Below, one piece after another: positions 9,742-29,648 of a DNA stretch of 45,312 nucleotides (within the stretch, counting starts at the first letter, position 1; each line of letters begins with the position of its first letter). The notes below the pieces were generated by a model. The model was not told the origin of the DNA and searched no databases. It saw only the letters and a list, made by a program, of their open reading frames with translations. The position numbers and the translations under genes are program-made. This stretch comes from Sedimentisphaerales bacterium (GTDB taxonomy: Bacteria > Planctomycetota > Phycisphaerae > Sedimentisphaerales > Anaerobacaceae): assembly GCA_016934255.1 (NCBI GenBank), contig JAFGTG010000002.1:1-45312 (forward strand). Reading direction: 5' to 3'.

Positions 9742-11001
9742 TTAATGTGCGATAACGCTGGAGATCCGGAATACCGGCAGGAGCAAGGCGATAGCAATCG
9801 TGCCAATAATGGCTCCCATGATAGTGATCATAATCGGTTCGATCAAAGTCATAACACTGCGAATCGACGCTTCGAGTTTCTTCTCGTAGAAGACCGAGAC
9901 CTTGTCACACACCTTACCCAGCTTTCCGCTTTTTTCGCCCGCCCGAAGCATCTGGATGATTCCGGGCGCAATTAAATCGCCGCCCGGGGAGATGGTGATC
10001 GATTCCGAAAGCTGGTAACCATCTCGAATCTTTGCATCCACTCCCGCCCAAAGCTCTTGAAAATAGTAGTTACGGCACGCACCCTGGATTACCTGAATCG
10101 AATCCAACAAACTAACCCCTGTATTGATCATAGTCGCCATGATGCGCATACTGCGCGTGACCACGGTGTCAATAAACATGGTCCCCACAATTGGCGTACG
10201 GATTTTGAAATAGTCGATCACCCGCCGGCCCATGACGGTTTTGGCCCAGTAATACAATCCGAATGAAATCAGAATAATCCCGGTCACGATGCCGGTCATG
10301 GCCTGCATATTACCCAACAATTTACTGAATCCGACGATGACCTGCGTTAGTTTCGGCAATGCCGCTCCCCGGGTCTCATAGATCTTCATAAAACGTGGTA
10401 ATACGAAGAACATTAAGGTCCCGGTCGCCGCCACGGCCATGAGCGCCATGATAAAAGGATAGGTCAGGGCACCCTTGATTCGTTTTCGAATATCGGATTC
10501 GAACTCAAGGTAACCGCTCAGCACATTCAGCATTTCCGCCATTTTACCGGAGGCTTCGGAGGCTTTGACCATGCTGATAAACATTTCATTGAAAGTCCTC
10601 GGATATTTATCCAGAGCATTTGAAAAATTTTCCCCCCCCTTCACTTTCTCGGCAATGTCTGCAATGATCATTTTAAATGAACCGTGCTCCGCCTGTTCTG
10701 CGATTGCGTCCATGGCGTCACTAAGCACAACGCCGCTGTCCAGCATTACCGACAATTGCGTCGTGAACAGAATCAGTTCCGCCTGCTTGACCTTCGCCTT
10801 GTATAAGCCGGGTGCGACAACATCTTCATCCTGGGACCACGTGTGATCGCCATATCGTTGTGAAGTCGGAGCGTTTTCGATACTCCGCAAAAAATCAGAG
10901 TCGTCCCGATCATGCCCCCGCCGACCTTCACTGAGTGACGAATCACTGTTTCTGGTGGCTGAATGAAATTTTTCCGAAACTTTTGATATCGGAACCGCCA
11001 T
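9742..11001 (-). CDS. gspF: Type II secretion / type IV pilus inner-membrane platform protein GspF/PilC
   Basis: 419 residues, usual family length about 400. It anchors the assembly ATPase and helps extract pseudopilins from the inner membrane (family knowledge). A non-conserved polar N-terminus (1-65) precedes two GspF domains: FTTQLSVMLDSGVVLSDAMD (about 79-98) and a second copy starting RSMRIMATMINTGVSLLDSI. Three transmembrane segments are visible (about 170-195, 220-245, 385-410). It is the last gene of the cluster, 49 bp after gspE, and ends just before the terminator at 9693-9735. Confidence 0.93.
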   Translation of the reverse strand: MAVPISKVSEKFHSATRNSDSSLSEGRRGHDRDDSDFLRSIENAPTSQRYGDHTWSQDEDVVAPGLYKAKVKQAELILFTTQLSVMLDSGVVLSDAMDAIAEQAEHGSFKMIIADIAEKVKGGENFSNALDKYPRTFNEMFISMVKASEASGKMAEMLNVLSGYLEFESDIRKRIKGALTYPFIMALMAVAATGTLMFFVLPRFMKIYETRGAALPKLTQVIVGFSKLLGNMQAMTGIVTGIILISFGLYYWAKTVMGRRVIDYFKIRTPIVGTMFIDTVVTRSMRIMATMINTGVSLLDSIQVIQGACRNYYFQELWAGVDAKIRDGYQLSESITISPGGDLIAPGIIQMLRAGEKSGKLGKVCDKVSVFYEKKLEASIRSVMTLIEPIMITIMGAIIGTIAIALLLPVFRISSVIAH

Positions 11002-11050: not shown

Positions 11051-12769
11051 TTAGACGATCATTTGCGCCGTTCTCAACACTTCCTCGATTGAAAGAATGC
11101 CGGCCTCTACCTTTCCAATCCCATCGGATTGCAGGGAAACCATTCCACCTTGCAGTGCCTTGGCCCGAATCTTTTTTAAGTTCGCTCCCTCATTAATCAT
11201 CTCTTTAATCTCATCATCCGGTACAAAGAGTTCGTGGATGGCAATTCTCCCGGCATATCCGGTATTGCGGCATTTCTTACATCCCACGCCCCGGTAAAAT
11301 GTCTCGACCTTGCCACCGGCCTTTTCGACGAGCTTGCGCAGACTCACCGGCGGTTCATACTCCGTTTTGCAATTCGCACAAATCTTGCGTACCAATCGTT
11401 GGGCCAGGACGGCAATCAAAGACGCCCCGACCAGATAAGGAGCCACGCCCAAATCAAGTAAACGTGTCACTGCCCCCGGGGCGTCGTTCGTATGCAGAGT
11501 CGAGAGGACCAGATGCCCCGTGAGCGCCGCCTGTACGGCGATATTGGCCGTCGCCTGGTCACGAATTTCACCCACCATTATGATATCAGGATCCTGCCTC
11601 AACAGGCTTCTCAAGGCCGTTGAAAACTCAAAACCCGCCGTCTGGTTCACCTGAAACTGATTGATGCCGGTAATATTGCACTCCACCGGATCCTCGACCG
11701 TGCAGATGTTGACTTCCTCGCTGTTCATCTCCGTCAGCGCGGCATAGAGGGTTGTATTCTTTCCCGAACCGGTCGGCCCGGTCACTAATACGATGCCGTT
11801 CGGCGCCTGGATGACCTGTCTGAATAATTGCAGATTCTCAACGGTGAATCCCAGGGACTCGAGACTATAAAGCATTTTGTGAGGATCAATCACTCGAATA
11901 ACGACTTTCTCGCCGAAATTACCCGGCATCACCGAGACGCGTAAGTCGATCGGCCGACCTTCCATGAGGACGTGAATCCCGCCGTCTTGGGGTAAACGCC
12001 GTTGTGCGATGTCAAGCTCCGACATAATCTTGATACGGGAAACCAGCGCCGAATGCATCTGATGGGGCGGACACATCTTCTCATACAATTTCCCGTCCAC
12101 ACGATAACGCACGCGAAGCTTTTTGTCATCCGGCTCGATATGGATATCACTGGCATTCTCACGCACGGCGTTATACAGCAGATAATTAACGAGCTTGACC
12201 ACCGGCGACTGGCCGGCGATCTCTTCGAGATTGCTGATGTCCTGCGTGATACTTTCGATCAACGTAAAATCTTCCAATCCCTCTTCGTCGATAATGTCGT
12301 CGATGACAAAAACATTCGCAGCGGGCAGGTACGTCTGGAGCGTTGCCTTAATATCCTTGTTCGTTGAACAGACGATCTGGACGCTACAGCCGCTGATACG
12401 CTCGATCTCATCCAGTAAAAATACATTCGTCGGCTCACTGACGGCCACGGTCAGCATGTCGTGAACCTTGAACAACGGCAGAACGACGTGCTCTTCGAGA
12501 AATTCCCTGGGGAGAATCTCCAAGACCTTCGGATCGCAGATCTTCGGGCCGACCTGCGCATACGGCACCCCGTAGGTATGGGCGAGCGCCGAGACAATCT
12601 GGTTCTCCGTACAATACCCCATCTCCACCAGAAGCTCGCCAAGAAGCTTACGATGGCCTTTGTCTTTTTGCTCGGCCAGCGCCGTTTCAATTTGCTCGGC
12701 GGTGACAATCTCCCGTTCAATCAGAAGCTCGCCAAGCGGCATTTTATTGCCTATTGCTATCCGGCTCAT
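11051..12769 (-). CDS. gspE: Assembly ATPase GspE/PilB with an atypical Walker A
   Basis: 572 residues. Cytoplasmic hexameric ATPase that drives pseudopilus or pilus assembly. The N-terminal MshEN/GspE-II-type domain (about 10-150) is followed by the catalytic core. Walker A is GPTGSGKNTT (331-340), Asp box NASDIHIEP, Walker B DPDIIMVGEIRD, His box STLHTNDA, and a zinc-binding tetracysteine CANC...CKKC near the end. Asn338 occupies the position normally Ser or Thr in GKS/T; the codon is AAT in the given sequence. The gene is 42 bp after the STAS gene and 49 bp before gspF. All other motifs are intact, so it is probably active. Confidence 0.93.
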   Translation of the reverse strand: MSRIAIGNKMPLGELLIEREIVTAEQIETALAEQKDKGHRKLLGELLVEMGYCTENQIVSALAHTYGVPYAQVGPKICDPKVLEILPREFLEEHVVLPLFKVHDMLTVAVSEPTNVFLLDEIERISGCSVQIVCSTNKDIKATLQTYLPAANVFVIDDIIDEEGLEDFTLIESITQDISNLEEIAGQSPVVKLVNYLLYNAVRENASDIHIEPDDKKLRVRYRVDGKLYEKMCPPHQMHSALVSRIKIMSELDIAQRRLPQDGGIHVLMEGRPIDLRVSVMPGNFGEKVVIRVIDPHKMLYSLESLGFTVENLQLFRQVIQAPNGIVLVTGPTGSGKNTTLYAALTEMNSEEVNICTVEDPVECNITGINQFQVNQTAGFEFSTALRSLLRQDPDIIMVGEIRDQATANIAVQAALTGHLVLSTLHTNDAPGAVTRLLDLGVAPYLVGASLIAVLAQRLVRKICANCKTEYEPPVSLRKLVEKAGGKVETFYRGVGCKKCRNTGYAGRIAIHELFVPDDEIKEMINEGANLKKIRAKALQGGMVSLQSDGIGKVEAGILSIEEVLRTAQMIV

Positions 12770-12811
12770 CTGTCGTCTTTCCGCTCAGGTGGGGTCAAGA
12801 TTCCATCGTTC

Positions 12812-14856: not shown

Positions 14857-14873
14857 AATGTCTCACGGATTAT

Positions 14874-15284
14874 TCAACTATGTGCCTGTTTCGACTGTTC
14901 ACCGACTAATTCTTTTTGATACAGAATGTCCTCGATGTGGCCCAATAATTCCTTCGGGCTGAACGGCTTGCTCAAACATCCCGATATGCGCAATTCCTCC
15001 TGCTGTTCCTGTGGAACGGCAAAGCTTCTGGCCGTCAGCATAATCACGGGAATGTCTTTTGTTTCGTCGTTCTGTCGAAGTTTCTCGATCAGTTCCATGC
15101 CCGACATAATCGGCATCTGGAAATCCGTCACAATAATATCCGGCTTGTCCTTCAGCGCCAGATCGTATGCCTCGGCCCCATTGTCGGCCGAGATGACTTC
15201 GTAACCGTTATTACGAAGCTTGATCGCCACCACATGAACGATATGAATCTCGTCGTCCACCACCAACACTCTTTTGTCCGCCAT
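14874..15284 (-). CDS. Single-domain response regulator (CheY-like)
   Basis: 136 residues, receiver domain only. Acidic pocket VVDDE (9-13), phospho-acceptor Asp54 in IVTDFQMP, Thr in MLTARS, and Lys in CLSKPFSP. No output domain, so it must act by protein contact, perhaps on the HD-GYP protein encoded 17 bp downstream. The kinase partner is probably the histidine kinase 74 bp upstream. Ribosome site GGAGGA six bases before ATG. Confidence 0.9.
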   Translation of the reverse strand: MADKRVLVVDDEIHIVHVVAIKLRNNGYEVISADNGAEAYDLALKDKPDIIVTDFQMPIMSGMELIEKLRQNDETKDIPVIMLTARSFAVPQEQQEELRISGCLSKPFSPKELLGHIEDILYQKELVGEQSKQAHS

Positions 15285-15358
15285 TGTTTATCCTCCAGTA
15301 GAATCTAATATGTCGGGGCTAAAAAGATACACCCGACGCTCATATTGCTAAGCTTTCC

Positions 15359-16918
15359 TTATACGACCCCCACCGATCGTCGCGTCGCCAAAGGCAACTC
15401 AAAACCAAAGGTGCTGCCCACGCCGACCTGGCTGGTCACGAACACCTTTCCGTCGTGGATCTTTTCAACGATCTGTTTTACAAGGTTGAGACCCAGCCCC
15501 GTTCCCTTGGCCTGTTTGTTGTTGGCGCCCACGCGATAAAACTTGTCAAAGACATGCTCGATTTCATCCGCGGGGATACCAACGCCCGTATCCGTGACCG
15601 TGACTCTCGCCAACGAAGCACTTTCATCAACCATGGTTTCCACACGCACCGATCCTCCGGCCGGTGTGTATTTCACCGCGTTACTGAGCAAATTCACGAT
15701 CACCTGGGACATCATGTCTTTATCCACATACACCTGGTCGAAGACAATCGGCTTTTGTCCGGAGACCTCGATGTTCTTTTCCTCCGCAAAACCTTTGATC
15801 ATTTGCATTTGTTCTTCAATCAGCAGTGTCAGACTCATCGGCTCTTTTTGCACTTTAATTAAGCCCGATTCGATACGCGACGTATTTAAAATATCTTCGA
15901 TTAAACGACTCAGCCTGTTAGCCTGATTTTGGATGACCGAATAAAATTCCCTTCTCGTGCGTTCATCATTGGCTTCCCCATCGGCCAGCATTTCGGAATA
16001 GGCCGTGATGGACGCCAGCGGCGTTTTCAATTCGTGCGAGACATGACTGACAAAGTCCGTTTTCATTTGCTGAATCTGCTTTTCACGCGTAATGTCATGC
16101 ATCACGGCGACGACGCCGGTCACCTTCTGGTTCCGGTCGTAAACACATGAGACGATACAATCATACGTTTTACGCTCGTCCTGTTCCTGAAATTCGATCT
16201 CTCGCCGAGTCGCCTGTCCCTTGCTCTTTCTGCTGTGACTGAGAAATTCCGAGAATTCACTTCGGTCCGCACTAATGAGTTCTTCAATTGGTTTACGTTG
16301 TGATTCCTTAAAATCAAAACTGAAAAGACGACCGGCTGCTTCGTTGGCGATTAACAGCCTGTCGTACTCGTCGGTCACAATCACCGCGTCTCGAATGCTA
16401 TAGATGATCGCTTCGATGTTCCTGCCCCGATTATGGGCGAGTTGCAACTGAAGCTGCAATTCCTTAATCTGCTTTTCATACTCGCCAATGCGCCCGGCGT
16501 ACTGATCGTAATGCTCAGAGATCGTTCGGCAAAGCGCATTGATTTGATGGATTCTGAGCGGTGAGAAAAAGCTCTCTTTTACAGAATTTTTCGCTTTTTC
16601 ATCGTTCCGAATAAATCGGGCTATGGACGCGATCGCCCTGGCCAGCTTAAGCCAGTGCCAGCCGAGCGGTATCGCGGCCATAGCCATCAGTATGCAGCAC
16701 CCCAGTAAGACCGGGCCGTGCTGCATGACAGCGACAACAGGTCCACCTTCATCGACGCCGTAGTTATGACCTTCGACGACAGGCCCAACAAACAACCACC
16801 ATGCGCCGACGCATAGAACCGTAATGTAAAAGTTTCTTTCGCGTTTCAAAACTATACCCTGAGGAATTAGATATCGTTTTTTGACTATCGCTTCAGACTC
16901 CCAACGGCCTCCTCTCAA
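15359..16918 (-). CDS. Membrane sensor histidine kinase with PAS domain
   Basis: 519 residues. Two transmembrane segments (about 30-46 and 68-90), a coiled coil (about 140-160), PAS domain (about 165-280), HisKA with phospho-acceptor His295 in SHVSHELKTPL, and HATPase with an N box (NLLSNAVKYTP), DTGVGIP, and GTGLGLNLV. No large periplasmic sensor; the short loop (about 47-67) may sense. The start is uncertain: the only upstream in-frame start is TTG at 16918, with no ribosome site before it, while AGAGGAGG lies just inside the reading frame. A TTG at residue 24 follows an AGGG. It is 32 bp after the secretin gene. Confidence 0.9.
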   Translation of the reverse strand: MRGGRWESEAIVKKRYLIPQGIVLKRERNFYITVLCVGAWWLFVGPVVEGHNYGVDEGGPVVAVMQHGPVLLGCCILMAMAAIPLGWHWLKLARAIASIARFIRNDEKAKNSVKESFFSPLRIHQINALCRTISEHYDQYAGRIGEYEKQIKELQLQLQLAHNRGRNIEAIIYSIRDAVIVTDEYDRLLIANEAAGRLFSFDFKESQRKPIEELISADRSEFSEFLSHSRKSKGQATRREIEFQEQDERKTYDCIVSCVYDRNQKVTGVVAVMHDITREKQIQQMKTDFVSHVSHELKTPLASITAYSEMLADGEANDERTRREFYSVIQNQANRLSRLIEDILNTSRIESGLIKVQKEPMSLTLLIEEQMQMIKGFAEEKNIEVSGQKPIVFDQVYVDKDMMSQVIVNLLSNAVKYTPAGGSVRVETMVDESASLARVTVTDTGVGIPADEIEHVFDKFYRVGANNKQAKGTGLGLNLVKQIVEKIHDGKVFVTSQVGVGSTFGFELPLATRRSVGVV

Positions 16919-16950: not shown

Positions 16951-18645
16951 TTACCTTCTGAGCCAACTCGGCGCCTCCTGGTGATCCCTTTTCTCAGACA
17001 TTTTTCGTTCCAGCCTCTTCAAGGCTTCATGGCCGTCCCTTTCGGCGATGATTCGCTCTTTGAGCCGAATCGCCTCGAGATAAGACGGGCGCAGCTCAAT
17101 CGCATATTCCACTTCCGTCATGGCATCTTCTAATTGACCGGACTCATAGTACACGATGGCCGTCGTATAATGTTCCTCGGCCAATCGGGCCCGACTGATC
17201 TGCTGCAATTCATCTTTGGCGCCAAATCGCTTTCGCTTAATATCATCTTTCCTGGCTTCACCGTCCGTTTCATTCGGCTCATTGATGATATGCGGGGTCA
17301 GCAGGATAATCACTTCCTCACGTTTGACCTGGTCGTTGACGCCCCTGAAGACGCCGCCCACGATCGGCAAATCACCCAGGATCGGAATCTGCGTCTTATT
17401 GGACGTGATCGTATCCCGGAACAAGCCGCCGATAACAACCGTCTCACCGTCCTTGACGATGATATTACTCAGCAATTCCGCGGAGGTTTCGTCCGGGATG
17501 TTGTTTTCCTTTAAATTACCCGAACTATCCTTCGGATGGATATCCATTCGGATGTATCCATCGTTGCCGATGTACGCTCTGAACGACAACTTCGTACCGG
17601 TATCGAGAAACTCGACCTGGGACGTTAATTGCGTATCCATCGATACGGTCGTCTGAGATTCATAGCCGACCTTGGTGCCGATATAAACCTGGCCAAGCTG
17701 CTTGTTGACGGCCAAAATCTTGGGATTCGCCAAGATCGTTACATCGCTAACGCTCTCAATCGCCTTGATAATGCTGGCGATGTTATCATGGGCAAAACCA
17801 ATCGCGAAGCCCCCACTTTTTGTGACGACTTGCGAGAGATTCGTCGACGTTATAAAATCTTTCGTTTTGCTTCCAATAAACGTTTGACCGGCGGTATTTG
17901 CATTTCCGAGCAGAAGCTGCCAGTCCACACCGAATTGCGTATCTTCGGTCAGCGTCGCGCTCAGAATGGTCGCCTCAATCAAAACCTGCAGAGGCCGGAT
18001 ATCAATATCTCCCAGCATTTCGCCTACCATCTCGATATTTTCAGGATAGTCGAACACAACGATCGTATCGTTCATCGCCGTCGCGTCCCCGCCGCCGCTG
18101 GCCGAACTGATCGACTCGCCGGTCGGAAAGTCCGTGATCGCCGCGGTGGTGGTTTCGATCGCACCGGTACCGCTGAGCACCGGCGTCAAAAGCTTCTTCG
18201 CCTCGGCCGCGGAAATATAATACAGAGTGAAGATTTTAAAAATCCGCCGCTCCGGCGCTTCCATCAATTTTTTGTATTCTTCCTTGGTGTACACTTTAAT
18301 GAGATTGCCCTGCACCTCATACATCGCGTTGTCACCCAGAATCGCTTCCATGGCCTCTTCGAATGTGACATTCGTCAGACGCCGGAACGCCAGAGAACCA
18401 TTGACACTCGCCGAAGGCACAATGTTCTTCTGGCATTGACTGCCCAGCATCGCCAACGCTTTGCGTACATCAAAATCTTCTTCCACCTCAAACTTCTCAA
18501 TAATATTGGGCCCGTTGCTTTGAGCAACATCTCTATCTCCGGCGTCGGCAACGGCGGTTGTCGTCGCCAAGATCAGGATAGAGCTCCACACGAGCACGCC
18601 CCATGGGATTTTCAGATTGTATTGTAATCTTTTATTACGACACAT
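16951..18645 (-). CDS. gspD: Secretin (GspD/PilQ family) with C-terminal TPR-like tail
   Basis: 564 residues. Outer-membrane channel of the machine. Signal peptide about 1-34. One short N-terminal domain of the STN/N0 type (about 50-120), one N1-type domain (about 133-215) interrupted by a Gly/Ser/Thr-rich loop, then the secretin core (about 220-455) with the signature TQIPILGDLPIVGGVFR and the closing ILLTPHII. After it come about 110 charged residues including one or two TPR-like helical pairs (about 485-535). It has fewer N-domains than classical GspD. Ribosome site AGAGGAG before ATG. It lies 43 bp after the PilP/GspC-like gene. Confidence 0.9.
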   Translation of the reverse strand: MCRNKRLQYNLKIPWGVLVWSSILILATTTAVADAGDRDVAQSNGPNIIEKFEVEEDFDVRKALAMLGSQCQKNIVPSASVNGSLAFRRLTNVTFEEAMEAILGDNAMYEVQGNLIKVYTKEEYKKLMEAPERRIFKIFTLYYISAAEAKKLLTPVLSGTGAIETTTAAITDFPTGESISSASGGGDATAMNDTIVVFDYPENIEMVGEMLGDIDIRPLQVLIEATILSATLTEDTQFGVDWQLLLGNANTAGQTFIGSKTKDFITSTNLSQVVTKSGGFAIGFAHDNIASIIKAIESVSDVTILANPKILAVNKQLGQVYIGTKVGYESQTTVSMDTQLTSQVEFLDTGTKLSFRAYIGNDGYIRMDIHPKDSSGNLKENNIPDETSAELLSNIIVKDGETVVIGGLFRDTITSNKTQIPILGDLPIVGGVFRGVNDQVKREEVIILLTPHIINEPNETDGEARKDDIKRKRFGAKDELQQISRARLAEEHYTTAIVYYESGQLEDAMTEVEYAIELRPSYLEAIRLKERIIAERDGHEALKRLERKMSEKRDHQEAPSWLRR

Positions 18646-18688: not shown

Positions 18689-19294
18689 TCAATTGTTTGT
18701 CGTTGATTCCTTTTCAAGTTTCAAAATGATCTCCGCTTCCTTGCACTTCATTACTACCGTATTTTCTTTAATCAACACTACTTCACATTCAAACTTATCC
18801 GCACCTTCCCCAATAATCATTTTACTCCCCACCCAGATCACGTTACCGTTCAGACACGCCTGGGGATTTTCACTCACCATCACGGCTTCAAGTTTCAGCT
18901 TCTCGGTCAATTTTTTGATCACTTCTTCACTAACATCTTGTGAAAAATTATTTACTTCTTCAAAACCATTGCGTTGACGTTGTCTATCTAAAAAATGACG
19001 CCAATTCTCTGAAGCAAAGACATCTCGGGTGATGACGTCATGCCGTCCGGCGACCTTGGGTAACTCTATAAACGTTATTTTTAATTCCAGATTCGACGGT
19101 TCGCTCGTACTCGACGGCTCGGCGATGATTTCCGCCCCGGCGGCTTCCGGCGATTTCTTCGTCAGCACTCGCATCCACATGAAGGCCATCACGCCCATTA
19201 AACAGAGAGCCATCACGACCTTTTTCTTCTCAGCCGCCAATTGACCGACCAGGCCTTTCGCCCGGTGACCGTTATGTCTGACGTTGCGTCTCAT
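18689..19294 (-). CDS. Bitopic inner-membrane protein, PilP/GspC-like by position
   Basis: 201 residues. A basic cytoplasmic N-terminus (1-25) is followed by one transmembrane segment (VVMALCLMGVMAFMWMRVL, about 26-44) and a periplasmic part. The last 70 residues (ACLNGNVIWVGSKMIIGEGADKF onward) resemble the small beta domain of GspC/PilP 'HR' proteins that bridge the inner-membrane platform and the secretin. Position between pilO and the secretin gene is that of pilP in type IV pilus operons. Sequence similarity to either family is weak by eye, so the name rests mostly on context. Confidence 0.6.
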   Translation of the reverse strand: MRRNVRHNGHRAKGLVGQLAAEKKKVVMALCLMGVMAFMWMRVLTKKSPEAAGAEIIAEPSSTSEPSNLELKITFIELPKVAGRHDVITRDVFASENWRHFLDRQRQRNGFEEVNNFSQDVSEEVIKKLTEKLKLEAVMVSENPQACLNGNVIWVGSKMIIGEGADKFECEVVLIKENTVVMKCKEAEIILKLEKESTTNN

Positions 19295-19310: not shown

Positions 19311-19847
19311 TTACCCTTGCGCCCTATAATAGATAACCGCCTTTGTTTCCATACTGATCTGTCCGCCGTAACCGGCGTCATTCATGAGCTTGACCTGCTC
19401 GATGCGGACAAGTCGGTCCAGGTCCTGCAAACGATCATAAAAATTAAATAGCTGAGTTAGCCGGCCTTTGCATTGCATACTCACCGGTATGCAGTGAAAC
19501 CTATCGGCAGCCAACACCTCCCCCGGCTCGATGCTCTGTTCCTGGAGATGGTGCTCATTCATCAGTTCCGTAATCCTGCTCAAAAAGGAGCCAAAATCCC
19601 TTTGATCCGGTATCTTGGATTCATAGTTTTCAAGCTCGACCTGCAATTTTTGTAACTGCTCCTTCAGAACGGGCACCTGCTCGGCATCCGCCATCCCCTT
19701 GGCAATCGTGACGACCTGCTCGGCCTTCGTCAGTTTGACAAGCCTCATTTTTTTACGAAGAGGCAAATACCAAAAGATGACGAATACGCATATAATCGCC
19801 CCGGCTACGCCGAATATCACTATTTGTTGACTTCTCCCGTACAACAT
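19311..19847 (-). CDS. pilO: PilO-like pilus/pseudopilus platform protein
   Basis: 178 residues. A single N-terminal transmembrane segment (about 9-28), then a coiled coil (about 45-80, EQLQKLQVELENYESKIP) and a ferredoxin-like C-terminal domain with the PVSMQCKGRLTQLFNFYDRL strand-helix typical of PilO. PilO pairs with PilN in the periplasm (family knowledge). 16 bp upstream of the PilP/GspC-like gene and 17 bp downstream of pilN. Confidence 0.8.
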   Translation of the reverse strand: MLYGRSQQIVIFGVAGAIICVFVIFWYLPLRKKMRLVKLTKAEQVVTIAKGMADAEQVPVLKEQLQKLQVELENYESKIPDQRDFGSFLSRITELMNEHHLQEQSIEPGEVLAADRFHCIPVSMQCKGRLTQLFNFYDRLQDLDRLVRIEQVKLMNDAGYGGQISMETKAVIYYRAQG

Positions 19848-19864
19848 TTTGTATTATTCACCTT

Positions 19865-20608
19865 TCAAAGCTCTCGATAATTGCCTAAATAACAATTAAT
19901 CTGAAACTCACTGACTTGAAGTTTCACTGCGGCCCCAGCACGCCCCTCCGTATCGCCCGCAAGAACATCCACATCGCGAAGGAATGGTGTGTTACGACTC
20001 CCAACCTGACCGTTGCGTGAAAAAGACAACACGACATGGCGAAAATACGGGGACGTTTCCAAACGACTCACCAATTCCGCCATATAGCTGGCATCCGCCG
20101 CTACGCCGGCGATCAAAACCTTAAATCGCACGTCCCCAAGCGGTACGTTCTTCTTACCTAACTGAGCCGGTGCGACCCTCACGACGGTACTCGGACGCCC
20201 CGATCCGTCCCCACCGCCTTTTCCGGGTTTTTCCGCAATGAATTCGATTTTGTTCAGAACAACCATTTCGTCCACCAACGAACTTATTTCCGCTAAAACG
20301 CTTGCCACATCAATTTTGGAATCAATTTCCTCAACGGATTGAATTTTTTCCTGTAACGTCTTCAATTCAGTCTTAATCCCCGTCAATTCCAAAGAGGCCT
20401 TTTCCGCCTGGTCACACTGAGTCGTCATTTGAGCTAATCCGGCTTTGGCGTTTGAAATCGAGCGGCTGGTGGCCAAACTCCAGACGATCATCACCAGAAG
20501 TACACCGCCTAACACGATGCACTGCATGCGATAATTCACCTGGCGTCTTCGCCCGGTCTTATACCAATCTGGAAGAAAATCAATTTCTTTCATACTCTCA
20601 TGACCCAC
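19865..20608 (-). CDS. pilN: PilN-like fimbrial assembly protein
   Basis: 247 residues. The N-terminal EIDFLPDWYKTGRRRQ is the cytoplasmic motif that docks in PilM (compare INLLP in PilN proteins). One transmembrane segment (about 28-45), coiled coil (about 50-95), then a ferredoxin-like periplasmic domain. A Gly-rich insert GKGGGDGSGRPS lies within the domain. Its start overlaps the end of pilM by 11 bp. Confidence 0.82.
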   Translation of the reverse strand: MGHESMKEIDFLPDWYKTGRRRQVNYRMQCIVLGGVLLVMIVWSLATSRSISNAKAGLAQMTTQCDQAEKASLELTGIKTELKTLQEKIQSVEEIDSKIDVASVLAEISSLVDEMVVLNKIEFIAEKPGKGGGDGSGRPSTVVRVAPAQLGKKNVPLGDVRFKVLIAGVAADASYMAELVSRLETSPYFRHVVLSFSRNGQVGSRNTPFLRDVDVLAGDTEGRAGAAVKLQVSEFQINCYLGNYREL

Positions 20609-21776
20609 TTCGCACGGGTGACCTCTGGTTCTCGATACCGTTCCAGCCCTTCAGGCTGAGTCCCACAGCGACCGCCCATTCACAGAGCATCCCTCGCCGA
20701 TCGTTCTGAAAATTCAATCCCGTTCTTCGACTCGATAAATCAAATCCCCTCAATGGCTCAGCGATTTCAATTTCGACGACTAACTGCCGCTTCAAAACAT
20801 CAATGAGAATGTCTTCGTAAGCCCCGCCGCCCGTAAAAATCGCCCGTTCCACACGGGCGCCTCTGAACGTTACCGTATAATACCTCAGACACAGCGATAT
20901 CTCTCTGGCCAGATCCTCCGCCACCGAACTCGCAACGTCCGTAATCAGATTTCGCGTCGAAGAGTCAATCGTGTCTTTTTCCTCAGCCATCTGAGATTCC
21001 GGCTCATCCGCAAACGTTTCTTTTTTCACCCGTAATGACTCTCGCAACGTCTCAGCCTCATCGACGCTCACACCCAATTTCGCCGCGATGTCCTGGACGA
21101 ATCGTTCTCCTCCGATCCCTATTTGTTTGACGAGACTGATGTCCCGCCCGTGACCAAAGACGACCGTTGTGAAACGGCGTCCAACATCGACAAAAACAAC
21201 CGTCCGCTCCAAATCCTCCTGGCGCCTGAGCGACCGGCCAAAACTGCGAAACAACGCACATGGAATCGGATCAATGGCCACGGGACATAATCCCGCCTCT
21301 TCCAGCATCTCTATGTGATCCTTGATTGTTTCACTGTCCGTGGCAAACAAAATCAATTCATTCTTCACCTCGTCGCCCTGGCGAACACTACCGGCCACGA
21401 GATAATCCATCGGATCCTTCTCAGGATCCAATCCGAAGCGCTGAGCCGCTTCTTTTCTGAGGGACCGTTCAATGGCCTCCGGATCCGTCTCGGCCAATCG
21501 GACGCTCGTGATTTTCAGCTTGCCGCTCGGTAAACACGAGACAACATCTTTCCCGACAAAATTACCTTTCGCAAGAATCCGCTTGATCGCCGAGATCACC
21601 GCCTTTCTTCGGGCCTGCTCATCCCCGTCCGAATCCGTCTCAATCCGGATCTCATCGGCGGCATGGATGGACATTTGCCCGTCATCGATCAAAAGTTGAA
21701 TCATTTTGATCGACCCGTGACCAATGTCTAATCCAATCGGTCGTAAACTTCGCTTTTTCAGCCCCCAGCCTACCAT
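20598..21776 (-). CDS. pilM: PilM, actin-like type IV pilus assembly ATPase
   Basis: 392 residues. Cytoplasmic FtsA/actin-fold protein that binds the PilN N-terminus. Phosphate-1-type motif PIGLDIGHGSIKMIQL (13-28), VVFVDVGRRFTTVVFGHGRD (phosphate 2) and AIFTGGGAYEDIL (adenosine motif) are visible. An insert rich in Glu/Asp (about 255-275) is not typical. PilM belongs to type IV pilus systems, whereas the pseudopilins here are type II secretion-like, so the machine is a hybrid. 107 bp after gspH. Confidence 0.9.
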   Translation of the reverse strand: MVGWGLKKRSLRPIGLDIGHGSIKMIQLLIDDGQMSIHAADEIRIETDSDGDEQARRKAVISAIKRILAKGNFVGKDVVSCLPSGKLKITSVRLAETDPEAIERSLRKEAAQRFGLDPEKDPMDYLVAGSVRQGDEVKNELILFATDSETIKDHIEMLEEAGLCPVAIDPIPCALFRSFGRSLRRQEDLERTVVFVDVGRRFTTVVFGHGRDISLVKQIGIGGERFVQDIAAKLGVSVDEAETLRESLRVKKETFADEPESQMAEEKDTIDSSTRNLITDVASSVAEDLAREISLCLRYYTVTFRGARVERAIFTGGGAYEDILIDVLKRQLVVEIEIAEPLRGFDLSSRRTGLNFQNDRRGMLCEWAVAVGLSLKGWNGIENQRSPVRSGS

Positions 21777-21883: not shown

Positions 21884-22429
21884 TCATTGCGACGAAATAA
21901 ATCCGGTCACCGGCTCAACCGTAATGGTGGCCGTCGTACCACCCGCCTGAAGACTTACTGTCCCTCCATTATCGGGACTCCCCAAACAATCGAATTGAAC
22001 GCTTTGGGTTGAATTGAAATTAACACTCGTGATATTGACCCTGCTTAATCGACTGTCATTCGGAAAACTGACAACATAGTTGAATCCCTTCTTCACGGGA
22101 TGTGGTATGACGACACTATCTTGATCCTCAATTTGATAGCTGTCCGCACTCACATCAAAAACTACGGAATAATTCTGACCACGGGTGATGGCCATACTTT
22201 TGGCATATTCCAGATCCGCCATAATAAGATTCGCCGCAGACCGGATCTGCATACTCGATGCCGAACTCATCATGGGAACCGCCGTCAGCGCCGCAATCGC
22301 AAGGATCACGACCACAACCATCAGCTCAATGACAGTGAAACCTCTCATCGAACCTCGCCGCTCATACCCAGAGCGTTCCTGACCATCCTGGTGATATGCC
22401 GCTACCCGAAGATATGTTAAGTCCGACAT
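21884..22429 (-). CDS. gspH: GspH-type minor pseudopilin with a long leader
   Basis: 181 residues. Prepilin motif MRG|FTVIELMVVVVILAIAALTAVPM has Glu5 of the mature form (FTVIE). The C-terminal GspH domain ends with a VEPVTGFISSQ strand. The start at 22429 is backed by AGAGGAGG eight bases upstream, giving a 30-residue leader before the cleavage site; a second ATG at 22348 with GAGG would give a conventional three-residue leader. Preceded by a small reading frame at 22434-22466 whose end overlaps the ribosome site. Confidence 0.85.
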   Translation of the reverse strand: MSDLTYLRVAAYHQDGQERSGYERRGSMRGFTVIELMVVVVILAIAALTAVPMMSSASSMQIRSAANLIMADLEYAKSMAITRGQNYSVVFDVSADSYQIEDQDSVVIPHPVKKGFNYVVSFPNDSRLSRVNITSVNFNSTQSVQFDCLGSPDNGGTVSLQAGGTTATITVEPVTGFISSQ

Positions 22430-22814: not shown

Positions 22815-24623
22815 TTATTTTCTTTTAATACTCTTGAAGAAAGCGCCGGCCGCCTGCCCCCACTTCTGAGTGTCACCGGTTTGAGACCATACCTCGACGG
22901 CCGCTTTCGCCGGCGCCGCGGTGATCGCAACAGTGCTGCCGCTCTCGTCCAACCTCCAATGACAGATCAGCCCGGTCACGGTCCCGCCGGCTCTGATCAC
23001 ATTGATCTCACCGGCATCCAAAGAACGGTTGTAAAGACGAACATCATCGATATAACCGTCCCAATAGCAATTTTTTGTTCCGCATCCAACCATCAATTTT
23101 TGCACGCCCGTAATCGTTCCAAAGACGGGTCCCATGTCGTACCGCAGCGGCGTATCTTGTACACCGTCAATATATAGCTTCAACAGAGAATCATTCGGAT
23201 CGTTCTCCCACGTCAAAGCGAGATGTTGCCAGCTTGTCGTCTGAACGTAGGAACTGCTTTCAATTTGCGTAAATCCCGACGTCGTGCGAATGGACGCTTT
23301 GATGCCTTGAACGCCTCCTCCGAAAGCCCCGTTGCGATCATATCGGATGCCCAATTCCTGATCGACGCCCGAAGGATCACGAGTATATACAATATCGCGA
23401 TCTTGATTAACGACATCCGATTTAATCCAGACCGAGAACGTGATACCGGATAAGCCGTTGATATAACTGCCGGCGGTGGCATCCTGGACGACATCATTCA
23501 CTCCGTCAAAAGATAAGGCCCCATTGAGCCGCCCCCCGGAAGGCTGCCATGTCGGATTACCGTCTATCACCCCTGTGTTACCATAGCCCGATGCATCTCC
23601 GACCGCCTGGACGAGCTCGTCTTGGACAAACAATCCACCCAGAACACTGAGATTGCCGGCCCCGGCATTTATCTGGACGTCCTCATCAATGACGGCAAGA
23701 CCGTTTACATGTAGATCACTGCCGCTCCCCACCATCAAATCGCCCGTAACTAAAAGAGCGGGGCATTTCTTCGCCGCCGTGATAATGTTCCGATTGCCCC
23801 GTACGAGCAGATTGCCGTTAACAATCAGCATTCCCTCGATACGAACGTCGCCCGCTAAGATCAGGCTGCCGTTGCAATAACAGATGCAAACAGGATTAGA
23901 CGATCCAAACGTCTGGCTGGAAACGGTACCGGAGCTAATGGATTGAGTCGCATAGTTTGTAATGAAGTCTGCTACGGTCACTCGAGGCCAAACCAATGAC
24001 AAATCCGCGACCGATTTCAATTGTCCCGTAATACCATTCCCACTGAGAGCGTCGGCGAAGGCATCGCCGTCAAGGGCTCCGCTGTTTGTCAATGTACCGT
24101 TACACAAAACATCACCATTGATTGTCATTCCATTCCAAACCGTCGCATCCGTTCCAATCCAGAGTGCGATACAGGGATCGAGTCGCAATTCCGCCGTCAC
24201 TTCACTCCGGCCGATCTTCTCGCCCCCTTCCATCCAGTATGCATTACAATCTATTGTATAATTACAGCGATCCGTCGGATCCGAATCATCGCGCACAATG
24301 TCAAGATCATAATACTCGTCGCTTCCGGCAACCAACTGCTGACCGGTATCTCCCGTCCAATAATCCGTCGCCACGTCCTGAGGATTGAGAATGAGTCCCC
24401 GGGCATGCTCCAATCCCGATTCGGCCAGATAGTCGATCTCTGTGCGAAGAGTCATGTTCCGTCCGCAGGCCAGTTCGACATCGCTTCGCGACAAGAAACC
24501 CAACGACAAGACCGTAATGGCCATCACGATAAAGAGCACGACAAGTAACGCCGCACCTTTACGATGGACTATTGATCCGCCAAAGGCGGAATGATTGACT
24601 ATTGATTTCATTTTAATCATCAT
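22815..24623 (-). CDS. GspK/PilX-like pseudopilin carrying a LamG domain
   Basis: 602 residues, much longer than GspK (about 320). N-terminal leader to G23, then the hydrophobic stem AALLVVLFIVMAITVLSLG without Glu5, as is normal for GspK. PilX-type segment to about 150. The middle region (about 155-335) is rich in short beta repeats (INGDVLCNGTL, VNGNLLVRG), suggesting a beta-helix. LamG/concanavalin-like domain about 338-545 ending DGYIDDVRLYN. A LamG-opening motif CHWRLDESGS (554-563) appears after it, at the wrong end. GspK caps the pseudopilus tip in type II systems, so this would be a carbohydrate-binding-type tip (inference). Residues 7-20 are encoded by the palindromic repeat at 24567-24606. 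Its start overlaps the end of gspJ by 11 bp. Confidence 0.8.
   Translation of the reverse strand: MMIKMKSIVNHSAFGGSIVHRKGAALLVVLFIVMAITVLSLGFLSRSDVELACGRNMTLRTEIDYLAESGLEHARGLILNPQDVATDYWTGDTGQQLVAGSDEYYDLDIVRDDSDPTDRCNYTIDCNAYWMEGGEKIGRSEVTAELRLDPCIALWIGTDATVWNGMTINGDVLCNGTLTNSGALDGDAFADALSGNGITGQLKSVADLSLVWPRVTVADFITNYATQSISSGTVSSQTFGSSNPVCICYCNGSLILAGDVRIEGMLIVNGNLLVRGNRNIITAAKKCPALLVTGDLMVGSGSDLHVNGLAVIDEDVQINAGAGNLSVLGGLFVQDELVQAVGDASGYGNTGVIDGNPTWQPSGGRLNGALSFDGVNDVVQDATAGSYINGLSGITFSVWIKSDVVNQDRDIVYTRDPSGVDQELGIRYDRNGAFGGGVQGIKASIRTTSGFTQIESSSYVQTTSWQHLALTWENDPNDSLLKLYIDGVQDTPLRYDMGPVFGTITGVQKLMVGCGTKNCYWDGYIDDVRLYNRSLDAGEINVIRAGGTVTGLICHWRLDESGSTVAITAAPAKAAVEVWSQTGDTQKWGQAAGAFFKSIKRK
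24567..24606. repeat. Palindrome flanked by 10-bp direct repeats inside the gspK leader
   Basis: GACTATTGAT (24567-24576) and GACTATTGAT (24597-24606) flank TCCGCC-AAA-GGCGGA (24576-24590). It is translated in frame as part of the N-terminal leader (SIVNHSAFGGSIVH) before the prepilin cleavage site. Confidence 0.6.
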
Positions 24624-25251
24624 CAGGGATAAGATCCGTTCCCGCCGTGTTGACCTGATGCCCCGCCCAACATCGAAGCGAACTATCTATATCATATAGC
24701 CGCACCTTATTATTTTCCGTCAGATTGAATGAGATATTGACAAATTGGCTCTGCGGCGGCGATGCGTCGAATTGAAACCGCACATTGCTGCATTCCGGAA
24801 TCATCACCACATAGTCTTCGTCACAATTATCCATAAGCGTCGTCTTAATCCAGTCATATTTAAGCCAATCCAGACGGATTGAAAATGTTTTGAGCCATGT
24901 CGGACAATTTGAAAATTCCATGATTTGAATGTGATTATTATCCGTCTCAATATAAACCAGCTCCTCGGCATTGATCCAGCCTTCTCCGCCGGGAACGTCA
25001 TCATCCCGCCAGATCACTAAATCCGTTCCGTTCACGCCGCAGACCAATTTACAATGTCGTATCAGCTCGGTGATTCTCAGCGAAGCATAACGGATCTGGG
25101 CCTGTTTGCGGTCCGTATCGTCGCTCGCGTCGTTGGCCGTGCTGAAGGCGAAAGCCAGCGTCGCCACCGCACTCATGATGATGCCCGTAACGATCAGGGC
25201 CACCATTAGTTCGACCAGCGTAAATCCTTTTTTAGGTTTTGTCTTTCGCAT
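24613..25251 (-). CDS. gspJ: GspJ/PilW-like minor pseudopilin
   Basis: 212 residues. Prepilin leader MRKTKPKKG followed by FTLVELMVALIVTGIIMSAV, with Glu5. The rest is a GspJ-like domain (residues about 45-200) with two cysteine-containing loops. GspJ joins GspI and GspK in the pseudopilus tip complex. The stop overlaps the gspK start; a 132-bp gap that contains a small inverted-repeat element separates it from gspI upstream. Confidence 0.82.
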   Translation of the reverse strand: MRKTKPKKGFTLVELMVALIVTGIIMSAVATLAFAFSTANDASDDTDRKQAQIRYASLRITELIRHCKLVCGVNGTDLVIWRDDDVPGGEGWINAEELVYIETDNNHIQIMEFSNCPTWLKTFSIRLDWLKYDWIKTTLMDNCDEDYVVMIPECSNVRFQFDASPPQSQFVNISFNLTENNKVRLYDIDSSLRCWAGHQVNTAGTDLIPDDD

Positions 25252-25383: not shown

Positions 25384-25878
25384 CTATTTACTCACCAGTC
25401 TATTGATCGTAACGATAGTCTCGCCGTCCCAGTTCACACGCACCGTCACGCGGATAAAAATCGGTTCTGCAGCCCCCCCTTCCTGGGGAACGTAAACATA
25501 ACTGCAATCGGCCTCCCTGCTGAATTTGGCATAGTGTAAATCGGAATAGGTTCCCCCGGCCGCGTTCCGAACTTGCCCTTCCGGCTCGATATATCCATCA
25601 TAATCCATGATGTCCACAAACGATGTATGAACGATCTGCTCCATCAAATGACTCGCCAGCTTGGCCCCTAACGTCCTGTGCATTCCCTCGGAGCGCAACT
25701 GGGCGCCGCTGGTAAACGGAAGCAACAATCCCGCCGCGGCAATTCCAAGCACAACGACGGCCATCATCGCCTCCGCCAGCGAGAAGCCGCGATACATATA
25801 CCGGTAGGGTGCGCCACCACCGTCCTTCGTATGACATACAGAGCGCACCCTACCTGTTTTCTCGATCTTAATAGTCAT
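25384..25878 (-). CDS. gspI: GspI/PilV-like minor pseudopilin with repeat-bearing leader
   Basis: 165 residues from the ATG at 25878, which overlaps the stop of the upstream gspG-like gene. Prepilin motif YRG|FSLAEAMMAVVVLGIAAAGLLLPF has the Glu of the mature form at position 5. The leader of 31 residues is unusually long and mostly encoded by an inverted repeat (25803-25854). The alternative start ATG at 25797 gives a three-residue leader; a longer frame to 25998 exists but lies within the neighbour. C-terminal domain (about 60-165) fits GspI/PilV. Minor pseudopilin of the tip complex. Confidence 0.78.
   Translation of the reverse strand: MTIKIEKTGRVRSVCHTKDGGGAPYRYMYRGFSLAEAMMAVVVLGIAAAGLLLPFTSGAQLRSEGMHRTLGAKLASHLMEQIVHTSFVDIMDYDGYIEPEGQVRNAAGGTYSDLHYAKFSREADCSYVYVPQEGGAAEPIFIRVTVRVNWDGETIVTINRLVSK
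25803..25854. repeat. REP-like perfect 12-bp inverted repeat
   Basis: GGTAGGGTGCGC (25803-25814) and GCGCACCCTACC (25843-25854) are exact inverse copies 28 bases apart. They lie in the region encoding the gspI leader or, if the downstream ATG is used, just upstream of it. Confidence 0.6.
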
Positions 25879-26377
25879 AGTAACTTTTTCCGGCGTCGTC
25901 GGTCCCCGTGCTATCGCTCCGCAATTCCGACGTCGCGGGTTTATACACCCAGCCGTGACTGTCGTCGGCATTCGCCGGGAAATTTTCCGCGTCCCCAAGA
26001 ATCTGAATCGTCGCTTTATTGTTTAGAGGATTATCAGGTATCTTCATCATGTACGGGCCCCGCTCGAAGCCCGGCGTTCCTACCGGCGCCGTCTGACCGC
26101 TTGCATTGCTCGACAGGATCATCTGGTCAATGAAAACCTGCTCGGTCGGCGCTAAGGTGGTGTCGCCATTGGGATAACCGGGCGCCACTTCCAAGTGCTG
26201 CCCTTTGTAAATCAAAACGAATCTTCGCAGCATCTGTAATTCCAGCGCCAGAGCGCTCTCTTTAGCAGAGATGGCGCCAGATGCAACTAACGGAAGAACC
26301 ACTCCTGCAAGAATCCCCAGCAAGACAACGACAACCAGGATCTCGATAAGTGTAAACCCTCTTGTCGCTTTCATCAT
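25868..26377 (-). CDS. Second GspG-like pseudopilin
   Basis: 169 residues. Leader MMKATRG then FTLIEILVVVVLLGILAGVVLPLV, with Glu5. The C-terminal part keeps the GspG layout: long helix with ALELQMLRRFVLIYKGQH, the GPYMMKIPDNPLN loop, and HGWVYKP. Calcium-loop residues typical of GspG are not obvious. It resembles the upstream major pseudopilin in the GPY-IP-NPLN/NQFN segment, so the two are paralogues. Ribosome site AAAGGAA before ATG. It lies beyond a terminator-like hairpin (26414-26453), which should lower its expression relative to the first pseudopilin. Confidence 0.85.
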   Translation of the reverse strand: MMKATRGFTLIEILVVVVLLGILAGVVLPLVASGAISAKESALALELQMLRRFVLIYKGQHLEVAPGYPNGDTTLAPTEQVFIDQMILSSNASGQTAPVGTPGFERGPYMMKIPDNPLNNKATIQILGDAENFPANADDSHGWVYKPATSELRSDSTGTDDAGKSYYDY

Positions 26378-26535: not shown

Positions 26536-26982
26536 CTAAAGAGCCGCATGTGCCGCAGAGTCATCCGCCTGGAAAGCGCCGCTATCACTATTAAATACCC
26601 AGCCATGCGTATTTGCACCAGCCGTGTTCACACCTGCTCCCTCAATACGAATCGTTTTAAAGTTGTTGAACTGATTCGTCGGTATCTGCTGGATATATGG
26701 ACCGTAATCGGTTCCGGCAGCGCCGGCGATGTTGGTCTGCCCAGTCATATCCGAAACAAAGTCGGCCTCCGTGTTAACACCAGCCGCAGGTAAATCATCA
26801 TTATGCTGAATCTTGTACAGTTCGATTTGTGAACGCATCGTCTGCAAATCGGTGCACAGACTCGACGTCTTGGCCTCCGTGCTGGCCTCGGTGAATTGAG
26901 GGATCACGATGGCCGCCAGGATACCCAGGATGACCACCACGATCAGAATTTCCACTAATGTAAAACCGCTTTGTGACTTCAT
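26536..26982 (-). CDS. gspG: Major pseudopilin GspG-like
   Basis: 148 residues from the ATG at 26982, chosen because AAAGGGG precedes it by six bases and because it gives the standard short leader MKSQSG before FTLVEILIVVVILGILAAIVIPQF (Glu5 present). A longer frame to 27096 exists but reads through the hairpin at 27055-27077. Typical GspG features follow: the helix SSLCTDLQTMRSQIELYKIQ, GPYIQQIPTNQFN and HGWVFNSDSG. First gene of the cluster with its own promoter (27251-27279) and a 260-nt leader, consistent with high expression. Confidence 0.88.
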   Translation of the reverse strand: MKSQSGFTLVEILIVVVILGILAAIVIPQFTEASTEAKTSSLCTDLQTMRSQIELYKIQHNDDLPAAGVNTEADFVSDMTGQTNIAGAAGTDYGPYIQQIPTNQFNNFKTIRIEGAGVNTAGANTHGWVFNSDSGAFQADDSAAHAAL

Positions 26983-27244
26983 TTTTTGCCCCTTTGTAAA
27001 AATAGATTTCTTTGACAGAACTTTAACATTCAATGTGCTCGCTCCGAACACATAGGGTATCGACTCAATCGATACCCAACTTAACCATACTCCCATTCTT
27101 CTTTTTGCCGCAAATCCCCCAAAAATAATGGTTCATAAAACATGACATTCATTTCAAACATCCAGCTACGGCAGCGAAAACGGCAGAATCTTGCGTCCGA
27201 AAATGACTTGCGTTGCCGCTTTTTCCAACGCCGTATAAGCGTCC
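26983..27244 (-). promoter_or_regulatory. Long structured 5' leader of the major pseudopilin, GEMM-like segment
   Basis: Between the predicted transcription start (about 27244) and the ATG lie about 260 nt. The part at about 27155-27228 contains, in order, GGAAAAAGCGGCAA, CGGACGCAAG and TGCCGTAGCTGG, reminiscent of the c-di-GMP-I (GEMM) core GGCAAACC / GGGACGCAAAGC / GGTAGCCGGG. Possible pairings are CGGCA with TGCCG, GCGTTG with CAACGC, and TACGGC with GCCGTA. The tetraloop hairpin of GEMM is not clear, so this is a candidate only. Confidence 0.35.
27055..27077 (-). promoter_or_regulatory. Perfect hairpin in the pseudopilin leader
   Basis: GGGTATCGA-5-TCGATACCC, a 9-bp perfect stem, 73 bases before the start codon. 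No U-run follows, so it is not a standard terminator; it could be part of the expression platform or an operator. Confidence 0.45.
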
Positions 27245-27983: not shown

Positions 27984-29648
27984 TCATCTTCCTAATTGAG
28001 CCGGGTAATAATACCCCATCGTCTGGGCGACGATGCCTAATCGGTATTGACGATCCTGCATAAGACATACGCGCCGAGCCGAAGCGGGAATAGTCGTTGA
28101 ATAGATACGAAGCTCCCCCTTCAGACTAGTTATCACTTCTTCCCGATCATCCCCGAGACAATCGACAATCGCTACGACTCGACCTTTAAACGGCGTTATT
28201 GCCTCGCCGCCCCAATCACGAATATCTCTGGAAACAATCACTTCTTTTTGCGGATCGGCATCCCACCAGACCGGACGTGGGCTTAACGTTCCCGTTTCGT
28301 GGAACTCAATCAACTCCCCCTTTGCACTGTACAACCAGCGCTGCTTGTAATCTCTTTCGCCGGCATAAACCTCCATACCCGGCGAATCGGTAAGAACGTC
28401 ACCCAGCATTCCCTGACCGTGAACATGTTTCGTTGCTTCTTTATGAGTCCAGAGTTTCAGGCCGGTTTTGGCATCGACAACGCATAATCCATCCGTTTTT
28501 TGTCGCGTTTCGAAACCGTAAAAGATCTCCAACCCCGGATTGTCAGAATCGATATCGGCGACATGGCATACATCAGGATGTCCCATCTGAAGTGTCCAAA
28601 GGCCCTTACCATTGTCATCCAACACCGCGGCCCCAATCACCAGTTCATCCCGGCCGTCCTCGTCAACGTCGGCACTGATCAAGCCGTGCGATCCCTGCCC
28701 ATGATACTTCTTCGTCTCTTGCGGCGATTCCCAATACCATATCTCGTTCAAATCCTTATCGAGCGCTTTGGTTTTAATCAAGTTATAGGTCCCCCGCTGC
28801 ATAATCAGCGAAGGCGTTTTACCGTCGAGGTAAGCCACCGTCAGAAAATTCCGGCAATAGTAATTATACGACGGATATCCCTCCCGCGTCAGCCATGCGG
28901 TCTTAGCCACGACCCGGCCGGTCTGGCCGTCGATCTTAACTAAGTACTCCGGTCCCGCTTGTACCAGCCCTTTTTCATCCCGCGGATCGCCCTCGCCGGC
29001 CTTGCAATAGACCTCGGCTTTGCCGTCGCCATCCACATCATACACGATCCACGGCGAATACCAGATCCCCGCCTCGATCGACCAGCCCATATCGTAGCGC
29101 CACAGCATCGTGCCATCCAGACGATACGCTTCGAGCTTATACGTCGTTGTGCTCTTTTTCCAATAGCCCGGATGTTGATAGGGATCCGTATTAAAATCCG
29201 GCTGCTTGATAATGTACTCATACGCCCCATCGCCATCCAAATCGCCGACGCCGATTTTCTGGAAATCGTAATCGCCCTTTAAAGAAATGCTTAAATATGA
29301 TTTGTCAATAGCTTTCACAAAACCAAGCCTATCGGATGACTCGACTTTTCCACCTTTGTTAAATTGATAGAGCGTATAGACGGCTTCCTTTTTTTCTCCC
29401 CGATCCGTATCGACAAAACAGGTTTGCCGGTACGGCTTGCCTTGCGTCAGATTGACAGAACCACGCATTAGTGTAAATGCCATATCGGGCGCATCGTCCG
29501 CCAACAATCGCCAACTGAGAAACACGGAGCCATCTTCTTTTTCAAGAGCGACCAGCCCCCGGCCCAGCTTTTCAGACCCGAATACACCTGCGGAAAAAAC
29601 AAAGAACATCAAACCGACCATCTCAATGAGCAACCATCGACATTTCAT
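27984..29648 (-). CDS. Secreted rhamnogalacturonan lyase-like protein (PL11 family)
   Basis: 554 residues, slightly shorter than characterised PL11 enzymes. Signal peptide about 1-24. The N-terminal domain starts EKLGRGLVALEKEDGSVFLS, the classical PL11 opening, followed by a beta-propeller with repeated calcium-binding DxDGDGxxE motifs (VGDLDGDGAYEYIIK, VYDVDGDGKAEVYCK, ADVDEDGRDELVIG). PL11 enzymes cleave the rhamnogalacturonan I backbone of pectin by beta-elimination (family knowledge). Activity not proven here. 21 bp after thiL, an unrelated biosynthetic gene. Confidence 0.85.
   Translation of the reverse strand: MKCRWLLIEMVGLMFFVFSAGVFGSEKLGRGLVALEKEDGSVFLSWRLLADDAPDMAFTLMRGSVNLTQGKPYRQTCFVDTDRGEKKEAVYTLYQFNKGGKVESSDRLGFVKAIDKSYLSISLKGDYDFQKIGVGDLDGDGAYEYIIKQPDFNTDPYQHPGYWKKSTTTYKLEAYRLDGTMLWRYDMGWSIEAGIWYSPWIVYDVDGDGKAEVYCKAGEGDPRDEKGLVQAGPEYLVKIDGQTGRVVAKTAWLTREGYPSYNYYCRNFLTVAYLDGKTPSLIMQRGTYNLIKTKALDKDLNEIWYWESPQETKKYHGQGSHGLISADVDEDGRDELVIGAAVLDDNGKGLWTLQMGHPDVCHVADIDSDNPGLEIFYGFETRQKTDGLCVVDAKTGLKLWTHKEATKHVHGQGMLGDVLTDSPGMEVYAGERDYKQRWLYSAKGELIEFHETGTLSPRPVWWDADPQKEVIVSRDIRDWGGEAITPFKGRVVAIVDCLGDDREEVITSLKGELRIYSTTIPASARRVCLMQDRQYRLGIVAQTMGYYYPAQLGR

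Follow-up and report, generated by a model that had tools for sequence, protein, structure and literature searches.

A K-slot minor pilin of Sedimentisphaerales carrying a nested and permuted LamG domain

Pilins that carry lectin-type modules, and filament tips whose variants are exchanged, are already known (PMC10374093, PMC8179133). In Streptococcus sanguinis, the pilin PilC bears a concanavalin A-like lectin module for which glycan binding has been demonstrated (PMC9934059), and pilins with a Laminin_G_3 module (PF13385) are among the 15 commonest architectures in a survey of modular pilins (PMC8179133). Variants of the tip adhesin ComC, a PilY1-type protein of Acinetobacter baumannii, recombine on a scaffold that is kept (PMC10374093). 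In type II secretion systems and type IV pili, a K-type subunit without the glutamate at position 5 (Glu5) caps an H-I-J-K tip complex (PMC9934059). ComZ of Thermus thermophilus has been put forward as a DNA receptor at the tip (PMC6561018). Here, a tip-type pilin is described from a stretch of 45,312 nucleotides (the window; contig JAFGTG010000002.1 of assembly GCA_016934255.1) of a Sedimentisphaerales bacterium. It is encoded in the K slot of a pilus-type operon and consists of a pilin, a beta-solenoid and a LamG domain (Table 1).

The reading favoured here, which has slightly better than an even chance of being right, is that the K protein is a tip minor pilin, that it acts as an adhesin on a machine resembling a type IV pilus (or a type II system) and that its ligand-binding module is exchanged by recombination. 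It is a modular pilin of known kind, not a GspK. Like PilC, which is modelled at the tip, it joins a minor pilin to a lectin-like module. In PilC, however, Glu5 is present, the pilin moiety is short and the modules follow at the C-terminus, whereas the window protein lacks Glu5, has a solenoid and carries a permuted LamG domain inside that solenoid (PMC9934059). ComC is a non-pilin with a von Willebrand factor A (vWA) head, varying as a cassette of several genes, unlike the exchange within one domain described below (PMC10374093). The protein also resembles the surveyed PF13385 pilins in being a pilin with a grafted Laminin_G_3 domain, although the accessible part of the survey describes no insertion, permutation or exchange of LamG (PMC8179133). 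This survey required the IPR012902 motif, and the window protein may have escaped it because a Pfam search found no PF07963 match. Literature searches on permuted LamG domains and on LamG in planctomycete secretion returned no useful match. As far as the compared literature shows, three elements are new: a carrier of ComZ type, a permuted insertion that is nested, and exchange inside one domain.

Nested architecture of the K protein

The open reading frame (ORF) is complete and starts with ATG. By sequence and model, its product combines a class III signal peptide, a pilin module and an extra module, as modular type 4 pilins do. The AlphaFold2 model has a predicted local distance difference test score (pLDDT) of 90.2 and a predicted TM-score (pTM) of 0.83, with low pLDDT in the leader peptide. 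At the cleavage site (HRKG/AALLVVLF), the glycine is invariant in 42 of 42 aligned relatives. None of the 42 has Glu5; position 5 is V, I, A, M, T or L, and Val in the window protein. The other five pilins of the operon all have Glu5, which makes the K-slot protein the only one of six without it. Since it combines the absence of Glu5 with a bulky head, the K protein would be the first subunit and hence lie at the filament tip.

The original prediction had described a pseudopilus tip protein with a GspK-like stem, a beta-repeat region and a LamG domain. The stem without Glu5 held up, and the protein shares with GspK its class III signal and a gene slot that follows I and J. The likeness ends with the stem: the GspK model of NCBIfam, NF037980, covers residues 22-83 only and scores 21.8 bits against a cut-off of 130, and Pfam T2SSK gives no match in the window protein at E 0.1. 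GspK, unlike this protein, has an alpha-helical domain between other strands (PMC6561018). Membership of GspK was rejected because NF037980 falls far under its cut-off and the stem alone resembles GspK. The predicted tip-type pilin is supported, by the lack of Glu5 and by a gene slot that follows I and J; the machine may be of type II or of type IV.

The core instead matches ComZ best. In a model of a LamG-free relative (L084, pLDDT 91.4), the best Foldseek match is ComZ of Thermus (6qvi, E 4.8e-7), pilins and pseudopilins match at Z 7.7-8.8, and the C-terminus aligns with the minor pilin 7o5y. The middle of this relative is a solenoid of the ice-binding-protein type (FfIBP, Z 14.7), and the predicted beta-repeat region is a solenoid in the confident models of both proteins. 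Modelling thus places an ice-binding-type beta-solenoid before the last pilin strand, and the LamG-free core is predicted to share the fold of ComZ, a tip pilin of Thermus. A profile search of PDB sequences to E 10 did not list ComZ, in which no LamG is described.

The LamG domain was also borne out. Its PF13385 match (70.6 bits, cut-off 27.6, E 2.1e-19) is the only Pfam family above cut-off in the window protein. As evidence of fold only, the LamG part matches the LamG of PAPP-A (Z 20.0), the arabino-oligosaccharide-binding domain of AbnA (5hon, Z 19.2) and pentraxins (Z 17-18). Both the pilin core and the LamG fold are present when the protein is modelled alone, and the predicted architecture is nested, with the solenoid within the pilin and the LamG within the solenoid. 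A PHROG match, confined to the LamG part and lying in a virion protein family, was rejected.

Permutation, spread and exchange of the LamG domain

An ordinary LamG of these genomes begins with a first strand like LVGWWKFDEGSG, followed by DSSGNG. The tip-protein insert opens at the DSSGNG part, and a W.LDESG strand closes it, adjoining ITAAP. A profile hidden Markov model (HMM) was built from canonical LamG starts and run on the tip proteins; in the window protein, residues 341-360 correspond to its positions 15-34 and residues 552-564 to its positions 1-14. The first-strand piece lies 33-48 residues from the C-terminus in 22 of 26 LamG-bearing tips and was found at that place in none of 23 LamG-free tips and none of 520 shuffled controls. 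Judged from sequence, the tip LamG is circularly permuted and inserted before the last strand of the solenoid. Because both main LamG types have the same permuted frame, one original insertion is favoured.

The relatives compared are Phycisphaerae and Sedimentisphaerales metagenome-assembled genomes (MAGs). In alignment, LamG-free proteins replace the insert by 11-20 amino acids (aa), running from the strand GGLF through these residues to ITAAP and on to a tail common to both forms. Among relatives from one family and order, K proteins have ~550-630 aa with LamG and ~360-400 aa without. Counted by hand, 19 genomes from two families have the LamG and 33 genomes lack it, 13 of these outside the order; the absences make the LamG-free core, found across the class, probably the ancestral state. 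Outside the class, there was no reliable find of the core. Genus g31 has both states, with LamG in G030 and without in G303.

Could the fusion be an artefact, a frameshift, misassembly or chimeric bin having joined a pilin gene to a LamG gene? The genome of the window is fragmented (634 contigs), and one relative has a LamG-bearing K gene (L054, also L021; 6681-8254) whose LamG runs on in another frame, through either decay or assembly error. However, the search for the same fusion elsewhere found it intact in 18 other genomes, two of which are complete chromosomes (CP070675 and CP070728). It occupies the same slot of a conserved operon, and the host tail resumes after LamG. Since it is intact in these genomes, across two families, the fusion is neither chance nor frameshift; a frameshift or chimera was rejected, and an artefact is next to impossible.

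In the core tree, computed with LamG columns removed, LamG-bearing proteins are scattered over separate parts, and a single clade of them was rejected (approximately unbiased, AU, test, 0.0058). Two separate LamG insertions are not favoured: as the insertion site and permuted frame are common to the proteins, spread by recombination would be simpler.

Exchange between tip genes is shown by conflicting histories of core and LamG. Each data set rejects the tree of the other, with AU 6.6e-5 for the core tree on LamG data and AU 1.2e-11 for the LamG tree on core data. The tip LamGs of type I group together with support, and those of type II form a group that includes one LamG from outside. On the core tree, the two types require 6 changes, against a mean of 6.0 for shuffled labels (AU against one clade, 8e-9). 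For example, L043 and L078 are 77% identical in the core and only 39% in the LamG, while the LamG of L078 is 67% identical to that of L052. A sharp swap tract marks this pair: DNA identity is ~70-90% as far as codon 387, falls to 28-52% in codons 388-543 and returns to 65-90% beyond, and the LamG flanks, including the permuted strand, follow the host gene. These comparisons show that the central ~160 LamG residues have been exchanged among tip genes with similar cores.

The LamG of the K protein is of type I. Outside the tip proteins, it is closest to LamGs that belong to large multi-domain proteins of the same family, including one from its own genome (41% identity); no recent transfer from these kin was demonstrated. 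Type I tip LamGs are sister to the LamGs of large proteins bearing N-terminal signal-like stretches. Residues R427, Y428, D429, E455, S456, W465 and H467 are common to tip and secreted type I LamGs, a hint of a common site, and it may be guessed that they form a putative binding site.

A functionally neutral insertion, in which an abundant mobile LamG drifts into and out of exposed loops, would account for several of these features: LamG is plentiful (108 matches in the 6.3 Mb genome, some in large multi-domain proteins), it is present in one genome of genus g31 and absent from another, and its type is unrelated to core phylogeny. Nevertheless, reading frames are intact in 19 genomes of two families, the same site and permuted frame are retained, and residues within the LamG domain are conserved; neutrality is considered quite improbable. 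A stronger form of the favoured reading is held more tentatively, at somewhat less than an even chance. In this form, the permuted frame is fixed, and recombination routinely replaces the core that faces the ligand, mostly with that of another tip gene and, over longer distances, with that of a LamG gene for a secreted protein. Close relatives among the planctomycetes would then show different lectin specificities on the same pilus.

Some relatives vary in other ways. L115 (G021, 515-1950, minus strand), in the same slot, joins a K-like stem directly to a LamG and a further stretch; it has no solenoid, is split over two frames in the assembly and is possibly an independent LamG graft. L113, L169, L170, L172 and L173 are short K-like proteins (~170-195 aa) of related genomes with neither solenoid nor LamG, which makes the head of the K pilin variable.

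The machine and the possible role of the tip

The operon runs from two GspG-like pilins through I, J, K, H, PilM, PilN, PilO, a small protein, a secretin, a histidine kinase, a response regulator and an HD-GYP protein to the ATPase and platform protein. Its order is kept in 18 loci of other genomes, with or without LamG in K, as far as each contig reaches and with some small genes under the BLAST threshold. The pilin order, G-G'-I-J-K-H, is the same in window and relatives. Scores of the machine proteins fit both filament types: the ATPase scores 605.8 bits with PilB and 600.9 with GspE, the platform protein 262 with GspF and 245 with PilC, and the secretin 181 with GspD and 180 with PilQ. On these scores, either a type IV pilus or a type II system would be compatible with the machine.

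One alternative is that the machine is a type II secretion system whose pseudopilus is short. Its tip LamG would recognise exported proteins or their bound polysaccharide in the periplasm or secretin and help to sort the many LamG-bearing secreted proteins. The GspG-like pilins, the near-equal scores of ATPase and platform protein and the sister relation of type I tip LamGs to those of large signal-like-stretch proteins speak for such sorting. On the other hand, PilM, PilN and PilO are encoded separately, an arrangement found in type IV pili, and the core is similar to ComZ, a pilus protein. Moreover, the machine is retained by LamG-free relatives, some of which (G034) have many LamG proteins. 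This possibility is considered unlikely.

The resemblance to ComZ raises another alternative, a DNA-uptake or DNA-binding tip in which the solenoid would do the work and the contribution of LamG would be limited to attachment to the biofilm matrix. ComZ is both the best structural match of the core and a proposed tip DNA receptor (PMC6561018), and most relatives keep the solenoid and not the LamG. The solenoid is, however, missing in some relatives (L113, L115), its fold is also that of ice-binding proteins, and the match to ComZ did not extend to sequence in the profile search. A DNA tip is judged distinctly unlikely.

Under the favoured reading of an exchangeable tip adhesin, the LamG would point away from the filament, where its ligand would be a surface glycan, a polysaccharide or something else. 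Recombination would alter the ligand, while pilin and solenoid would preserve the interface with the filament, so that the handle would stay the same and the grip could be changed. That the K protein binds glycans, sits at the tip and is exposed on the surface is inferred. Several points weigh against this reading. LamG domains are not all sugar-binding, and the filament may leave the cell as a pilus or stay periplasmic as a pseudopilus. Many relatives are without LamG, so the machine has no need of it, and the number of LamG matches in the genome makes chance acquisition easy.

Little is known of how bacteria in the environment direct their type 4 filaments. One operon slot with and without a lectin-like module, and with differing LamG cores on similar pilins, provides a natural swap set that allows a direct test of the role of the tip domain. 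It also suggests that tip diversification may operate inside a single domain.

Features of the window and neighbouring genes

Table 1. Coordinates of the K gene, its parts and the associated operon genes in the window
Feature	Position	Strand	Basis or remark
Tip-type minor pilin (K slot), pilin + beta-solenoid + LamG, 602 aa	22815..24623	(-)	ORF, AlphaFold2 model
Leader peptide, residues 1-23, Gly-terminated	24555..24623	(-)	class III prepilin cleavage site
Stem helix, residues 24-79, without Glu5	24387..24554	(-)	helix 22-79 in model
Antiparallel pilin sheet, residues 80-150	24174..24386	(-)	model strands 91-148
Beta-solenoid, ice-binding-protein type, residues 151-333	23625..24173	(-)	structure matches of LamG-free relative
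LamG insertion, residues 334-566	22926..23624	(-)	alignment, insert lengths
Equivalent of exchanged tract, ~residues 369-530	23034..23519	(-)	mapped by alignment from L043/L078, without a dated swap in the genome of the window
Pfam Laminin_G_3 match, residues 388-541	23001..23462	(-)	PF13385
Permuted strand LICHWRLDESG, residues 552-564, canonical first LamG strand at insert end	22932..22970	(-)	
C-terminal tail, residues 567-602, last solenoid strand + last pilin-fold strand	22818..22925	(-)	
GspG-like pilin 1, likely major subunit	26536..27096	(-)	TIGR01710 53.8 bits, below cut-off
GspG-like pilin 2	25868..26377	(-)	TIGR01710 45.3 bits, below cut-off
Minor pilin, I slot, with Glu5	25384..25998	(-)	listed start overlaps upstream gene; true start probably later
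Minor pilin, J slot, with Glu5	24613..25251	(-)	PF07963, sequence, conserved order
GspH-type minor pilin	21884..22429	(-)	PF12019
PilM-like	20598..21776	(-)	PF11104
PilN-like	19865..20608	(-)	PF05137
PilO-like	19311..19847	(-)	PF04350
Small membrane protein, PilP/GspC position by place only	18689..19294	(-)	conserved order
Secretin	16951..18645	(-)	PF00263
Assembly ATPase, PilB/GspE type	11051..12769	(-)	T2SSE 443.7 bits
Platform protein, GspF/PilC type	9742..11001	(-)	PF00482

Profile searches gave no family above cut-off for the small membrane protein. The secretin has a C-terminal stretch (residues 489-521) resembling tetratricopeptide repeats (PF07719, below the Pfam cut-off). Genome-wide, there are 16 matches to T2SSE-family ATPases, including several of PilT type, and 9 to secretins, from which it follows that several type 4 filament systems coexist in this genome.

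Within the pilus operon, a histidine kinase with a PAS domain, a response regulator and an HD-GYP protein are encoded in the region 11051-16918, and the ATPase has an MshE-type motif for binding cyclic di-GMP (61 bits, cut-off 38). Together, these make it likely that cyclic di-GMP control is built into the operon.

The original prediction also held that neighbouring secreted proteins use the same domain class. A LamG protein is indeed encoded at 5088-7208, with only 26% identity to the K LamG; the link was given little weight, on account of this low identity and because LamG is so abundant in this genome that its presence nearby means little. Just upstream of the operon lies a family 11 rhamnogalacturonan lyase gene (27984-29648; PF21348, 297.8 bits), which agrees, as weak evidence, with a polysaccharide-using life. 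At 63-3551, a 1162-aa protein contains pieces of a flavin adenine dinucleotide (FAD) oxidoreductase, with an F5/8 type C domain at residues 142-259 and a second FAD-binding start at residue 574, and is possibly another nested insertion.
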